From assembly GCA_009192285.1 (NCBI GenBank), contig WBVU01000004.1, positions 2,130,001 through 2,194,000 of the forward strand: 64,000 nt of DNA, read 5' to 3'. A model generated the notes under the pieces. The model was not told where the DNA came from, did not search any database, and worked only from the letters and a program-made list of their open reading frames with translations. The position numbers and the translations under genes are program-made. Origin of the DNA: Morchella semilibera. Taxonomy: Eukaryota > Ascomycota > Pezizomycetes > Pezizales > Morchellaceae. Every line of letters starts with the position of its first letter. Positions within the stretch are counted from its first letter, which is position 1. This document shows positions 19,261 through 33,775 of the stretch, one piece after another.

Positions 19261-19878
19261 ATGACTGATTACGAACAAAAGAGAACCTCTCAGAGAAATA
19301 AGCTCATAGGAGACTTCATATCCTGCTTGTCTTCCACAGAATTTGTGCCTCAAGAAAATATCAACTATTCTTTAATGTCGCTTTTCGAAATTTGTGCGGG
19401 GGGGCACAGTGAAACGGACAACAAGGAGTCTCAAAAATACATCCTGGATGAACTGAGAGGGCACTCTGAAATAATACTCGAAAAAACTACCAGCCGCAAA
19501 GTTGATTATGAACAGGCCATCTTGCTTTCGAATTCATCAACATCGTTCGTACAAGAGGGCTCTACTGACGTTAGAGCCCGAATTCTCGCCTCTATAGAAG
19601 CAATCGATATGCTTGGTTGTCTTGCTTCAGATGCTTACCAAAGGTACGATGTAATCACGGCTCGTATTGAGAGCCTTGATGATGTGTCGGAATTTCCGCG
19701 CTTTTTAACCTTTGGCGAATGGGAGGTATACGTAGGGGTTTTTAAGATGCTTCAACTGTTGCACAAGGAGGAGGAGTCAAGGATAGATCTTTTCAGGATT
19801 CAGCTCATGAACGAAAGACGGATTCTTAGAACCCTAGGAGGGCTGGCTGGGGTAACTGGGGGTGGTTGGGGTTTTTAA
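19261..19878 (+). CDS. Unknown protein of 205 residues, predicted helical
   Basis: Single open frame from an ATG in good context (CCAACATGAC) to TAA. I do not recognise the family. The protein has no signal peptide or membrane segment. It is mostly mixed-charge and helical-looking (NKLIGDFISCLSSTEFV, RILASIEAIDMLGCLAS, MLQLLHKEEESRIDLFRIQ), and ends with a Gly-rich tail (GGLAGVTGGGWGF). Codon use resembles the neighbouring genes and a pyrimidine-rich leader precedes it, so it is probably expressed. It lies tail to tail with the HisRS-like gene (stops 120 bases apart). A species-restricted protein is likely. Confidence 0.55.
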   Translation: MTDYEQKRTSQRNKLIGDFISCLSSTEFVPQENINYSLMSLFEICAGGHSETDNKESQKYILDELRGHSEIILEKTTSRKVDYEQAILLSNSSTSFVQEGSTDVRARILASIEAIDMLGCLASDAYQRYDVITARIESLDDVSEFPRFLTFGEWEVYVGVFKMLQLLHKEEESRIDLFRIQLMNERRILRTLGGLAGVTGGGWGF

Positions 19879-19998: not shown

Positions 19999-21961
19999 CT
20001 ACTCCTTATGTCCCCTCAATTCAATTTTCGCATTCTTCATCTTGATCTTTGCCCCCTTAACCTCAATCTGAGCTCCTTTCGATGTGATCTTTGCAAAATC
20101 CATCTCGATCTCGATGCCTTCCATATCCACAGTTCCACCCTCTAGCTTGACTTTTTTCACGTTTTCGTTAAATGGGTCCCCACCAGTATCACTATCGTTC
20201 TCTTCATCATCCTCATCGTCAGTATTGTCCGTATCATCGCCATCTTTACTCCCCTGTTTCCTTTCAAGTCTCTGTTTGATTTCTGCCGCGATATCCAAAA
20301 GATTCACGTCTATCCCCGTCTTCTGCGGATGGCCCTCGCGTAGACTTAAATCCACGACTTTTACTTTTTGTTGTTGCAGGGTTTCCGGACTAAGTATTAT
20401 TGCAAATGGAATGCCACCCTTTCTCGCAGCTGACATTTGGTATGCAAATTCCGGCTTTTTTTGATACGAAAACTCAGCCTGCCTTGGTCAGTTTCAATGT
20501 TTGTTTAAAATATGTAAAATTTACCGGGTACTGCAAACCTTAACACCTTCGTCCCAAAGTTTTTTGCAAACTTGCATCCGCTCCTTTAGAAATCCTTCGC
20601 CAAATGACATGACGTACACCTCCGTTTCGCTTTCTCTAAACTCTTTTTGGGACGATAACTTCTCTTTGATAATACCAGAGACCTCATTTACATATAGCGA
20701 GAAGTAAACAAGCTGGGCTCCATAATCTTCTTTATTATAATCATCTCGTCCACCGGTTGCTATACAGGTAGTCTCCCTGAAGTCGCCGGTAATTTCGATT
20801 ATTTGTCCCGCACCTAATGACATTTCTGGAATCGGAACCGGGGCTACAGCCATAAAAGCTACGCCAGTCTCTGCCTAAAACATGTGAGAAACCTTCGCTA
20901 GATATAAATGGAAAAATGGTAAATACTCACAAAATCGGTAAAAGAAAGATCGAATTCAATCCTATCCATTACTCCGAAGATTTCAAGATAATCAAAAAGG
21001 AGTCCCATTTCACGGAGCCCGGTAAAGAAGGTCTCGTTTGCAATCAGATCCTCCTCAAGTAACAAATCATACTGAAGACGCCTTCCTCCTATTCAAGCTT
21101 CAGTATTCGAGGTCTGTTTGAGAGATTCCTTGCTTTAAAAACCTTTCCTAGAAAAATAATGCGAAAGCTGAGAAATATCCTTTTCTAGGCAAGCCCCTGA
21201 TTGCAACAATTTTTTTTCAATTTCTATCAGAAGATCATTATCCGATTGGAATCCCTAGTGCCTAAACATCAGAGATGTTCTAATCTGAACGCATAGTGCG
21301 CCAGTTGACAAACTATACTGGAGGTTTGAAGATATATATACCTTCAGTCTCAACGATGAAAAAAGAGCTGTGATTACTCTGAAGTTGTGTCTAGCCACAC
21401 CATAGCTCTCAAGTATTCCATCAATAATCTTCCGGTGGTTGATCCTTATCTTATAATCCTCTAGATCGACCTTGCTTAATATTTCTATTAAGGCCCTTAA
21501 GACCTCTGCGTCGGGAAGCATATCATCGAATACTCCGAGAATAATCGAGTCACATGTATAGTTTCTGGTATTATGAAAGAGCATACCCTTGGTACTTTCC
21601 CAAGTGTCGTTGTCGTCGTCGTTCTGAACAGATGCCCCGATCGTGTAGCACTTTGCAGGTTTATCCACATCCAGCAAATTCTCTGCTAGCCAGCGTCTGG
21701 TGGACTCAATAAGACGGAGGCGTGCATGAAACTCAAAATCATAGAGACATTTGAGGGCCCTACAGTAGTTTATCAACTTGTTGGCTTACTCATTCTACAG
21801 TATTTTGGTTACGGGCATTTTAAGACTCGCAAAGAGGCTTACGGGGAATCAATTCGGACACCTCCATGGCGCTTGAAAACCTCTACGGCTGTGTTTATTA
21901 TTTTGTCGCGGATGACAATGTCTGTTCCTATCCTTCTTTGTTCGCCGCTTAAGTCGTCCAT
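19999..21961 (-). CDS. Catalytically degenerate histidyl-tRNA-synthetase-like protein
   Basis: Six exons on the minus strand: 21843-21961, 21342-21759, 21143-21254, 20931-21088, 20525-20874 and 19999-20482. They sum to 1641 bases (546 residues), all joined by GT-AG introns that keep the frame (the third donor, GTTTTT, is weak). HisRS resemblance runs throughout: VIRDKIINTAVEVFKRHGG (motif 1 region), MLPDAEVLRALIEIL, YKIRINHRKIIDGILESYGV, LLFDYLEIFGVMDRIEFDLS and the anticodon-binding-like ETEVYVMSFGEGFLKERM and KPEFAYQMSAARKGGIPFAI. The catalytic parts are missing: the YRRDQP and REFYQ residues of motif 2 are replaced (VQND, TRNYT), the RGLDYYTG HisA motif is gone, and GGRYD reads GGRDD. About 25 residues after motif 1 are absent. 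An acidic run and a heptad-repeat tail (KGAQIEV, KGAKIKM, KNAKIEL) follow. It cannot be a normal synthetase; a regulatory or structural paralogue is likelier, and a decaying duplicate is the alternative. No kinase domain, so not Gcn2. Confidence 0.8.
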
Positions 21962-22617: not shown

Positions 22618-23792
22618 CTACGCTGGCCCATCTAGCCCTGCCCGGCTCTCATTCTCAATAAGGGCGACAAATATGAACCCATAGCGCAATTTACCAAATT
22701 CCCAACTTCTGCCTTTTTGTTCTAGATAGCTTAGTGCTGAAAGCGCATCGTCGTAGGCCAGATTGGTACCCGTCTTAAGGCAACAAACGATCCCATCCTC
22801 CTCAGGGTTACAGGAAGTTTCGTTGAAGAGCCCCCCACGAAGTGTAGCACCTTGAAGAGACTTGATGATGGATTTCCGGAGAATCTCTCTGGCGTATGAT
22901 CCTGTATATAATAAATCATCGTAAGAGAGTTTATTCCCTGAATGTAATTAATTCGTTTGTAAGCGGCGGGCTCGAAGCACTTAGAACCTGACAAGTGTTG
23001 CGCTCATGGATTATTCACCTGAAATAGCTCGTTTCAATGCCATGATTGCCGCGGGATGGTGCGATTTAATGCCATATAGGATGTCCGTGTTGGTTTTAAA
23101 CTTTGACAGAAGGGAGGTTGCAAGGCCTACTCCTCGATAGTTTTGGTTGACTACGACTTGAGTGATCCAGCACACATCACCTATAGAATGAACCAGTAAG
23201 TATATTTGCCCAAAGCCATATCTCTAACGCTTATTATAGCATACCGTCTAACGCATGATGGGGCCATCGTGTCCCAAACGCATAACCAACAAGGTTATCC
23301 TGAATATAAATTCTGACTAGAGTGGTCTTCTCTTCGCACGAAACACACTCTGCACGGAGGTGTTGCGCGGTTGTCCTTAGGTACGAGCCTATACAAAGTA
23401 CCAGAAATCAGCACAGACCTATTACATTGGAGTCATGACCACGACCAGTATCAAGGATACAAACCTGGTACAATCTTGCTATTCTGATCCTTAGCCATCT
23501 TACTCCACACCCCAAAGCTGGCATTAAAGAGCTTGACACATTCCGCAATAACATCATCCGTGATTTCGGCTCCCTTAGAGACCTTTTTGGTAGTTTTTAT
23601 GCATGCCCAACGCCGCGCCGGAGGTGACCACGGATTTTCGATTTGTGTGAGGCGGAATGGATTCTGCGGTGAGTATGGCGGTAGCATATGTTCATCCTCA
23701 AAGTCTGTTGAGCGAGGCATCACAACGATTGAACTGGTAGTTGGTTTTTCCTGCTCTCTGATGGGTTTATGCTTTCTTGATGAAGATGTCAA
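22618..23792 (-). CDS. GNAT-family N-acetyltransferase, substrate unknown
   Basis: Four exons: 23465-23792, 23245-23388, 23019-23180 and 22618-22901, together 918 bases (305 residues), with introns of 76, 64 and 117 bases. The acetyl-CoA-binding core is visible: LVGYAFGTRW (strand 4 area), then CWITQVVVNQNYRGVGLATSLL, where the V-V-V-x-x-x-Y-R-G-x-G-L-A pattern is the family's Q/R-x-x-G-x-G/A motif A. A later part (SYAREILRKSIIKSLQGATLRGGLF) matches the C-terminal half of a fungal-specific cytosolic GNAT group. The N-terminal 110 residues carry a PPYSPQNPFRLTQ segment and look partly disordered. I chose a long third intron (117 bases) because it links ISG directly to SYARE in frame; a shorter alternative adds an exon that does not fit. 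Target (protein or small amine) is unknown. Confidence 0.8.
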
Positions 23793-31168: not shown

Positions 31169-32294
31169 TTTCTTTGTAGTGACTGCTTTTTGGGAACTAC
31201 GATGTATGTTATATGTCTGTGGTGTAGCTATGTCTTCATGTGGCTATGCATTTATGTCTAGGAACGTCAATAGCAATCAGTAGAGGGCCCAGGGTAGGAG
31301 GTTAAGTAAAACCAATGGTTTGGGGGCGGGGCCTTGGTTATGATTCATGTATTCCGATTTTTCTATCCCTCTTTCGAAAGAACTACGCGTAGGGGTCTGA
31401 ATTCCTTTAATAATTAGCATATAACTTTAACTCCGATTTACTTGATCCACAGCTTATATTGAAGAGTGAAGAAAACCGCATTTTACGAACTTTAGGGGAT
31501 TGTTGTCAGAACCCCTAGCTAGCATTGTGCACGCAAGGCTACTGTGGTTAGACCCATACATGTAGTTTACAATTTGATATTAACACTTACATACACCCCG
31601 AACCCGACTACCTCGAGTATCTTGTTGACTCATGGTGTATCACTCGGTCTTGGTAATTTGTGCGCTATCCACCTTGACAACATAACATATATGTCGATGT
31701 ACCGAGGGTGCACTGGGAATTTTAAGTTTCTTAGTTGGCCAATTTCTAGAGTTTGCTATATCCGTTGTTTTTGTACTCTGAGGAATTTAGGTGGATGTAA
31801 CACTTCGACTGCTGGCCCAACACCAAGAGTTTGAACTCCCTCCCCTCGAGAAGTCATGAATACTTCAAACCAGTGCTTACTTTTTAACCCTTTTTTGTAC
31901 TACGGTGTCAAGGGTAAGTGAGTAGAACGTAGCAACGCAAACCGCACCGCCGCGTTCTACTCACCCTTCACACCGGAGTACATGTGGAACACTGAACCTT
32001 GAATTAACTATTATTGCCATGCATGGGTTCGGGCCCTCAGCCCTAAGCCCCGTTTCGTTATTAAATGATGGTGGGGCATGCTTGTCTTGGCGGGCGGGCA
32101 TCTCGCACCCCGCAGCCAGAAACAGGAAAGAGTCATCGCGTTTCAATTAGTAGAGGTCACTCGGTTTTTCAAACGCTTTTAGCACAATATTCAAACTGAA
32201 TATCTCAACTCTCCTTCGTACAACAGCCCGCGTACTTCCCCGCCGAGTCTCTGTGCTCCCACAGCTCATACAGCGAAGATACACAACCGCAAAA
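31169..32294. other. Intergenic region between Myb-like and ARC1-like genes
   Basis: About 1.1 kb without a gene. It holds the 3' UTR of the Myb-like gene, the palindromic TA-flanked element at 31900-31978, and the ARC1-like promoter. Confidence 0.6.
31900..31978. mobile_element. Short TA-flanked palindromic element (foldback MITE-like)
   Basis: Bases 31900-31929 (CTACGGTGTCAAGGGTAAGT, then GAGTAGAACG) pair with 31952-31978 in reverse (CTCCGGTGTGAAGGGTGAGT on the other strand), leaving a loop of about 20 bases. TA lies on each side (31898-31899, 31979-31980). The ends resemble those of the element at 60348-60449, which suggests one small family. Confidence 0.6.
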
Positions 32295-33775
32295 ATGGCT
32301 GGCTACACACTCTCAGTTGCACAAAATGACAAGCCACTCCAGCTGCTCATTTCGTCATTCAAAGACCTCCTCACTCCCAAAGTTACCCTTTCTGAGTCTA
32401 CCCCGGCAGTCTCTCAGCTCGTATTGAACAACGCCGACACTGTTGCGGGAACAAACACCATTGTTTCACACCTGTCAACACTCATTCCGGCGTTCAAGGA
32501 GGATCAATACACGGACCTTGAGAAGGCCGAAATCACCCAATGGCTTACACTCACTGCCACAACTCCAATCATTGAGGACTCTCTGCGCTCGTTAAATGAC
32601 GAGCTCAAATTCCGTACTACAATCCTCGGCGAGAAGCCCTCCATCGCGGACGTGGTTGTGTATGCCCGTCTTAAGGACGATGTTGCTGGTTGGACAGACG
32701 AGCAGAGGACTGGAGAGACTGGCTACAGAAATATTGTCCGCTGGGTCGACTTTGTCCAGAACTCGCCTGTGTTTGGGCTTAACTTGCCAGAGAGTGAGAA
32801 GGTCAAGATTGACCCTAGCAAGGTGTTGGTATACTTGAAACCCGAGGAAGCTGTCAAGGAGAAGAAGAAAGAAGGCGTTGAGGGTGAGAAGAAGGTCAAA
32901 GGAAGAGCGGGTGCCGCAGAGAAGACTAAGGAGAAAGTTGTTGAGGCTAAAGAGGCTGTTAAAGAGGAGGTTAACAAGGCTGCGACTGCTGTTGCCGGCG
33001 ACGGTAAGAAGCAGCAAAAGAAGGAGAAGAAGGAGAAAGGCCCTCGTAGAGAGGCCCCACCAAAAGAGGGTTTGTTCATACAAGATACTCCGTTCATTTA
33101 AGAGCATTGTTGACATAGTCTACAGAACCTGTACTTTCACCCTGCCAGATTGATCTCCGTGTCGGTCATATTCTCTACTGCACTCCCCACCCCAACGCTG
33201 ACTCACTGTTCGTGTCTACCATCGCCATGGGCGACCCTGCCGACTCAGCTCTCGTCACTCCTCCCTCAACACTTACTCTCCCTGAATCTGTGCTCGCTGC
33301 TCACAACCCCCTTCCTCCTGTGCGTACAGTTTGCTCAGGTCTTAACGGTCTTGTACCTTTGGAGGCCATGCAGGGCCGCAAAGTTGTTGTCGTGGCCAAC
33401 CTCAAACCTGTCACAATGCGTGGTGTCAAATCCGCCGCTATGGTTCTCGCCGCTTCCCCTGTTGGCGACGACCACGGCAAGGTCGAGCTTGTTGCTCCCC
33501 CAGAGGGCGCAGTAGCTGGTGAGCGTGTATATTTCGAGGGTTATAAGGGTGAGCCCGAGGCAGTTCTGAATCCTAAGAAGAAGGTCTGGGAGGCGATCCA
33601 GCCCGGTTTCTCAACGAGCGAAGAGAGGGAGGTGATCTTTGACCGTTCAAAAGCTGGTTGGGAAGGTGATGCGGCAAAGGGCAAGGCGCCAGGTGAGGGC
33701 CCTATTGGGAAACTGTTGGTTGAGGGTAAGGGAACATGTCGCGTCGAGAGTTTGATGGGGGCTACTGTGCGATAA
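32295..33775 (+). CDS. ARC1: Arc1/EMAPII-type tRNA-binding synthetase cofactor
   Basis: Two exons, 32295-33069 and 33126-33775 (474 residues). The intron was placed so that KE joins EPVLSPCQIDLRVGHI in frame. Residues 1 to about 175 are GST-like, with WLTLTATTPI and GEKPSIADVVVYARLKD; this part docks synthetases in yeast Arc1. Residues about 185-258 are a Lys/Glu/Ala linker expected to bind RNA. Residues 262-474 are the EMAPII-like OB-fold: IDLRVG, HPNADSLFVSTIAMGD, VCSGLNGLVPLEAMQGRKVV, ANLKPVTMRGVKS. In yeast Arc1 holds MetRS and GluRS, raises tRNA affinity and keeps both in the cytosol. The start is the first ATG (32295, AAAAATGGC context); an in-frame upstream extension without ATG could encode extra residues only through a non-ATG start. 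Gene looks intact. Confidence 0.92.

Follow-up and report, generated by a model that had tools for sequence, protein, structure and literature searches.

The HisRS-like gene and its surroundings

The window, by which we mean the whole stretch of 64,000 nucleotides that was analysed (C20:2130001-2194000), contains a HisRS-like gene on its reverse strand. By Pfam, its neighbours in the window are Iml1, MCM6, an Arc1-like gene, an ankyrin protein and a PLP-dependent aminotransferase-family enzyme, which we take to be 5-aminolevulinate synthase. An earlier note on this DNA had described six exons that join in frame into a 546-residue protein collinear with HisRS, and both parts of that description hold. 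The protein matched human HARS over residues 14-453 (E 6.7e-41) and the intact HisRS of the same genome, on contig C2, with E 2e-87 by blastp. Compared with eukaryotic cytosolic HisRS (HARS/HTS1, class IIa), it is collinear from motif 1 to the anticodon-binding domain and the gene has three introns in common with the genome's own HisRS. The features are as follows.

21961-19999 (-): HisRS-like gene, six exons joined in frame, 540-546 residues
21843..21961 (-): exon 1, N-terminus and motif 1 (FKRHGGVRIDSP); omega about 0.10, 40 codons
21760..21842 (-): intron 1, 83 nt, GTAAGC..TAG; position and phase of C2 HisRS intron 1
21342..21759 (-): exon 2, TXE-loop remnant, destroyed motif 2 and conserved DMLPDAEVLR...INHRKIIDG; omega about 0.15, 127 codons
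21255..21341 (-): intron 2, 87 nt, GTATAT..CTGAT..TAG; position and phase of C2 HisRS intron 2
21143..21254 (-): exon 3, part of the insertion domain; weakest exon, 18% identity, constraint not detectable
21089..21142 (-): intron 3, 54 nt, GTTTTT..TAG; additional relative to the C2 gene; retention brings in-frame stops
20931..21088 (-): exon 4, end of the insertion domain and conserved MGLLFDYLEIF..FDLS; omega about 0.05, 52 codons
20875..20930 (-): intron 4, 56 nt, GTGAGT..CTCAC..TAG; additional relative to the C2 gene; by alignment within the former RGLDYYTG motif
20539..20874 (-): exon 5 (540-residue model), former HisA/HisB/motif 3 region and first half of the anticodon-binding domain; omega about 0.20, 97 codons
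20479..20538 (-): intron 5, 60 nt, GTTTGC..CTGAC..GCAG; position and phase of C2 HisRS intron 3
20524-20483 (-): intron 5, 42-nt alternative of the 546-residue model
19999..20478 (-): exon 6, second half of the anticodon-binding domain, acidic linker, heptad tail and stop; omega about 0.10, 102 codons
20176..20244 (-): acidic linker (DGDDTDNTDDEDDEENDSDTGGD), without counterpart in intact HisRS
20002..20160 (-): C-terminal tail of seven heptads, mostly xxx(I/V)x(hydrophobic)x

Two choices of intron 5 leave the frame open. GTAAAT...CCAAG (42 nt) gives the 546 residues of the earlier note and GTTTGC...GCAG (60 nt) gives 540, and the donor of the latter lies at the donor position of the intact C2 HisRS. 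A third pairing, GTAAAT with GCAG, causes a frameshift that truncates the protein. A model lacking exon 3 is also in frame (497 residues), and this exon may be skipped in splicing. The context around the start codon is weak and there may be an extra exon upstream.

To judge the junctions we used a stricter set of splice sites. It gave 33 candidate junctions. For 10 of them a candidate combined a branch site with YAG, and in 8 of the 10 a donor of the form GTRNGN or GTATTT is available. The donors of intron 3 (GTTTTT) and intron 5 (GTTTGC) are unlike these, and we consider both introns doubtful. We also trained a splice-site model on 294 kb, which placed the donors of introns 3 and 5 at the 69th and 61st percentiles, the total score of intron 4 at the 3rd, and the 42-nt intron 5 at percentile 0, where intron 1 of the intact gene also fell; the training set was visibly contaminated, with donor positions nearly flat, and we disregarded these percentiles.

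Three other features near the gene were observed. A single-exon ORF of 205 residues (19261-19878, +) is convergent with the HisRS-like gene, with 120 bases between the stops. It had only sub-threshold Pfam matches, no PHROG match and no second copy in the genome, and is possibly a lineage-specific gene. An exon resembling a GNAT acetyltransferase (23011-23223, -) lies near the HisRS-like gene and scored just under the cut-off for PF00583 (20.4 versus 20.7 bits). The Arc1-like synthetase cofactor gene (32154-33775, +), with Arc1p_N_like and tRNA_bind domains, lies about 10 kb away; this closeness is probably a coincidence.

An intact HisRS and an old duplication

The earlier note had proposed a check for a separate intact HisRS gene, and one is present in the genome searched (56,756,124 bases in 23 contigs). 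It lies at C2:4211327-4209572, has 4 exons and encodes 524 residues with every motif present, and it has an upstream in-frame leader that carries its own ATG. A search of the genome with the window protein returned 11 places, of which six are the window gene, three are the C2 HisRS and two are weak (E 0.04 and 0.05, on C19 and C10). Apart from these two weak places, this search found no third HisRS copy.

Introns 1, 2 and 5 of the window gene correspond to introns 1-3 of the C2 gene in position and phase, and introns 3 and 4 are extra. The two proteins are 42.7% identical over 452 aligned codons. Counted on proteins, identities were 190/451 between the window protein and C2 HisRS, 132/412 between the window protein and human HARS, and 259/449 between C2 HisRS and human HARS. 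At the 175 columns where the C2 and human proteins differ, the window protein has the C2 residue in 61 and the human residue in 21. Because of the shared introns, the identities and this column agreement, duplication most likely occurred in the fungal line after the shared introns existed. Synonymous sites are saturated between the two genes, which indicates that the duplication is old.

Other origins were examined. From the 30 kb surrounding the C2 HisRS we took the stop-to-stop ORFs with 40 aa or more and compared them with the window by tblastn; the six rows returned were all HisRS-like exons, so that no co-duplicated neighbours were found and a segmental duplication including flanking genes was rejected. 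The gene is also not a fragment of Gcn2. On C7, a single 828-residue frame combines a HisRS-like region with a kinase catalytic loop; from its sequence we call this gene Gcn2-like, and a search with the window protein up to E 10 did not retrieve C7. Six short patterns scanned against prokaryote contigs detected no relatives, and a plasmid scan returned two Paracoccus places with 24% identity, one of them annotated as histidine--tRNA ligase.

Catalytic segments are lost and other regions are kept unevenly

In catalytic HisRS, the arginines of motif 2 (YRRD..REFYQ) bind ATP. We aligned the window protein with the intact C2 copy and compared five catalytic segments (TXE, motif 2, HisA, HisB and motif 3), the borders of which we drew ourselves. 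All five are altered, and the window protein thus lacks the residues that HARS/HTS1 has in each. In motif 2, the residues aligned with YRRDQP are VQNDDD and those aligned with REFYQ are TRNYT. HisA (RGLDYYTG) reads DFAE--TG, HisB (GGRYD) reads GGRDD and motif 3 (GVDRIF) reads YVNEVS. The losses in motif 2, RGLDYYTG and GGRYD that the earlier note had read from the window alone are therefore real against the intact copy. Its claim that about 25 residues are absent after motif 1 was right about the loss and too large in size, which is 20 residues in blocks of 14 and 6. These data bear on the idea that the gene encodes a catalytic isoform of HisRS, such as one for an organelle, whose active site has diverged but still works. 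Its ancestry and the intron positions in common with the intact HisRS would fit such an isoform. However, alteration of five out of five catalytic segments argues against it, as does the intact gene already having an in-frame upstream leader, and we consider this idea extremely improbable.

Among residues shared by the human and C2 proteins, the window protein keeps 25/82 in the catalytic segments and 86/177 in the remainder (Fisher P 0.007, with gaps counted as lost). When gaps are left out the values are 25/72 and 86/162 (P 0.011). The contrast between catalytic and non-catalytic regions is not uniform. The anticodon-binding domain is kept best (23/36), and 21/37 residues are kept in the stretch after motif 2 and 8/15 in motif 1, the dimer segment. 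The insertion domain (12/30) and the rest of the N-terminal part (8/33, with 9 deleted) are non-catalytic yet kept no better than the active site. Retention at human-conserved sites (111/234) differs only modestly from that at variable sites (61/175; P 0.012), indicating that constraint is loose. Given this small difference, the fold seems to be constrained more strongly than the residues conserved in the enzyme.

In profile searches, the class II anticodon-binding domain PF03129 passes (35.3 bits versus a cut-off of 21), whereas PF13393 (18.5 versus 25 bits) and TIGR00442 (58.8 versus 286.75 bits, from a model built for prokaryote annotation) are below their curated cut-offs. The claim in the earlier note that there is no kinase domain agrees with the four Pfam families listed for the 541-residue protein, none of which is a kinase, and with the separate location of the Gcn2-like gene. 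Single-sequence AlphaFold was run on two exons with no alignment and was uninformative, with low confidence (mean pLDDT 43 for exon 6 and 37 for exon 2).

The reading frame appears to be under selection

The spliced model has 0 stops over 452 aligned codons. We simulated neutral change from the C2 codons (2000 runs each) and obtained means of 4.1, 7.9, 11.4 and 16.9 stops at 10, 20, 30 and 48% divergence. At the observed 48% the minimum was 4 stops, and at 10% only 1% of runs were stop-free. A limitation of this simulation is that it loads the whole divergence onto one branch, so that the 48% figure is overstated and the rows for 10-30% are the cautious ones. The earlier remark that this gene needs neither stops nor frameshifts holds, and its frame is much more open than neutral drift would leave it. 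The exons were picked for openness, which favours the model; yet three of the five introns are fixed by the intact gene.

The earlier note had also proposed dN/dS, for which we used a two-branch codon model. Differences between the window gene and C2 at the three codon positions were 0.45, 0.35 and 0.65. On the window branch omega was about 0.1 (0.11), a value that is approximate because dS is saturated, and neutrality was worse by 31.7 lnL and is rejected. With omega on the C2 branch fixed at 0.03-0.1, an omega of 0.3 on the window branch was worse by 2.9 to 4.1 lnL and neutrality by 31 to 33. We calibrated the model with codon frequencies that differed between the two branches. In 24 neutral simulated sets the median omega was 1.04 and 0.91 and constraint was favoured by at most 1.9 lnL, and values of 0.3 and 0.15 were recovered from 12 sets each. 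One grid point (omega_win 0.02, omega_canon 0.1) and one region fit did not converge and were ignored, and a row named ORF244, cut in the wrong frame, was left out. When exons were fitted separately, five of the six favoured constraint, by 5.6 to 11.0 lnL; none was detected in exon 3 (34 aligned codons, 18% identity). The dinucleotide ratios of the gene body resemble those of the neighbouring MCM6 bins and differ from those of the bins immediately outside the gene. By the RIP thresholds applied, the gene body has no RIP-like shift, and decay driven by RIP was rejected.

These results make it very improbable that the gene is an old neutral pseudogene whose frame is open by luck or as an artefact of exon choice. 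Exon borders were chosen for frame and retention of intron 3 brings in stops, both of which would suit such a pseudogene, but the calibrated codon test by itself strongly disfavours it, and the stop simulation, the constraint on five of six exons and the coding-like dinucleotide ratios point the same way. A paralogue that long remained functional and died lately, before its frame decayed, is less easily dismissed and still unlikely. The odd donors of introns 3 and 5, the unconstrained exon 3 and the frame-shifting alternative for intron 5 are consistent with a recent death. However, 0 stops in 452 codons leaves room for only a short neutral phase, given the mean of 4.1 at 10%, and exon 6, which lies beyond the doubtful intron 5, is constrained and open for 159 codons.

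The reading proposed by the earlier note, that the gene is a maintained, non-catalytic paralogue of HisRS, is supported by the intact HisRS elsewhere in the genome, the open frame, the codon test and the preferential loss of the active site. We consider it probable. As expected of a pseudo-synthetase, the gene is homologous to a synthetase, has lost catalytic residues and has a frame kept by selection, with exon 3 alone lacking constraint.

An acidic linker and a heptad tail

The seven heptads of the tail are VKKVKLE, GGTVDME, GIEIEMD, FAKITSK, GAQIEVK, GAKIKMK and NAKIELR. None of 5000 shuffles reached the observed hydrophobic period of seven, while periods of 2, 5, 6 and 8 were not significant; the period, phase and start of the heptads were picked after the pattern had been noticed. 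The self-agreement of the tail DNA at a lag of 21 was 0.44, versus 0.33 in codon shuffles (P 0.0014). The first heptad lines up with the last residues of intact HisRS (VKKVKLEG and VAKVVLEG, respectively), and repetition of this former C-terminus may thus have given rise to the tail. No second copy of the tail was found in the genome. Searched alone, the tail gave 16.8 bits versus a cut-off of 27 (E 0.0067) with PF21930, a beta-helical trimerization family; as this is sub-threshold, we did not accept the tail as this domain. Its best PDB match had E 0.9.

Possible role and relation to other HisRS relatives

Together, these data support the idea that the fungal HisRS gene was duplicated long ago and that one duplicate lost the residues for histidine activation yet was maintained as a protein. 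We infer that the HisRS-like core still folds together with its anticodon-binding domain and that, with ATP- and histidine-binding residues changed, the protein would not form histidyl-adenylate. Because retention is highest in the anticodon-binding domain, in the stretch that follows motif 2 and in the dimer segment, the protein would be expected to act by binding. The likeliest partners would be tRNA-His, through the best-preserved domain, or HisRS, through the retained motif 1 segment. With the acidic linker and the heptad tail it has probably gained a further protein-protein contact. The first exon, unlike that of the intact gene, has no in-frame upstream ATG, which makes an organelle leader less likely. 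By analogy with the HisRS-like domain of Gcn2 or with HisZ, the protein could act on histidine charging or histidine status, as a regulator or a chaperone that binds tRNA-His or HisRS, a role that we put forward only tentatively.

A maintained protein need not have kept a link to HisRS. It may have a job unrelated to tRNA-His or HisRS, in which the HisRS core would be a mere scaffold and the linker and heptad tail the functional parts. The motif 2 loop of HisRS reads the extra G of tRNA-His, and its loss, together with the loose constraint and the new period-seven tail, would fit such a job. Against this, the best-kept part is the anticodon-binding domain. Within the preferred reading of a maintained, non-catalytic paralogue, we regard this as a possible variant, about as probable as a role in binding tRNA-His or HisRS.

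To our knowledge, few non-catalytic relatives of HisRS are known, namely the Gcn2 domain and bacterial HisZ. The HisRS-like domain of Gcn2 is a non-catalytic HisRS relative, and both it and the window protein are eukaryotic; by contrast, the window protein is free-standing and has no kinase match. HisZ, the regulatory subunit of ATP phosphoribosyltransferase, is likewise a HisRS paralogue without adenylation. It is not known to have an anticodon domain, whereas the window protein has one and comes from a eukaryotic host, and the match of the window protein to the HisZ model TIGR00443 is weak (31.4 bits versus a cut-off of 271.65). Relative to HARS/HTS1, the window gene differs further in its two extra introns, acidic linker and heptad tail. 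In the available portion of a review of duplicated synthetases, HisZ is described as a HisRS paralogue without adenylation activity that occurs in bacteria only, and is the sole HisRS example named (PMC9437257). Among the matches listed in the open-licence PMC literature there was no report of a fungal HisRS-like non-catalytic paralogue.

From these comparisons we propose, as a speculative model, that this free-standing eukaryotic pseudo-HisRS has kept its anticodon-binding domain and binds tRNA-His or pairs with HisRS, and would thereby regulate charging or sense histidine in a kinase-free manner, with a beta-type heptad tail through which it would self-assemble or bind partners. It could then be a kinase-free fungal counterpart of the HisRS-like domain of Gcn2. 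If true, a maintained free-standing pseudo-HisRS in a eukaryote would be another reuse of the HisRS fold, with the intact gene in the same organism for comparison.
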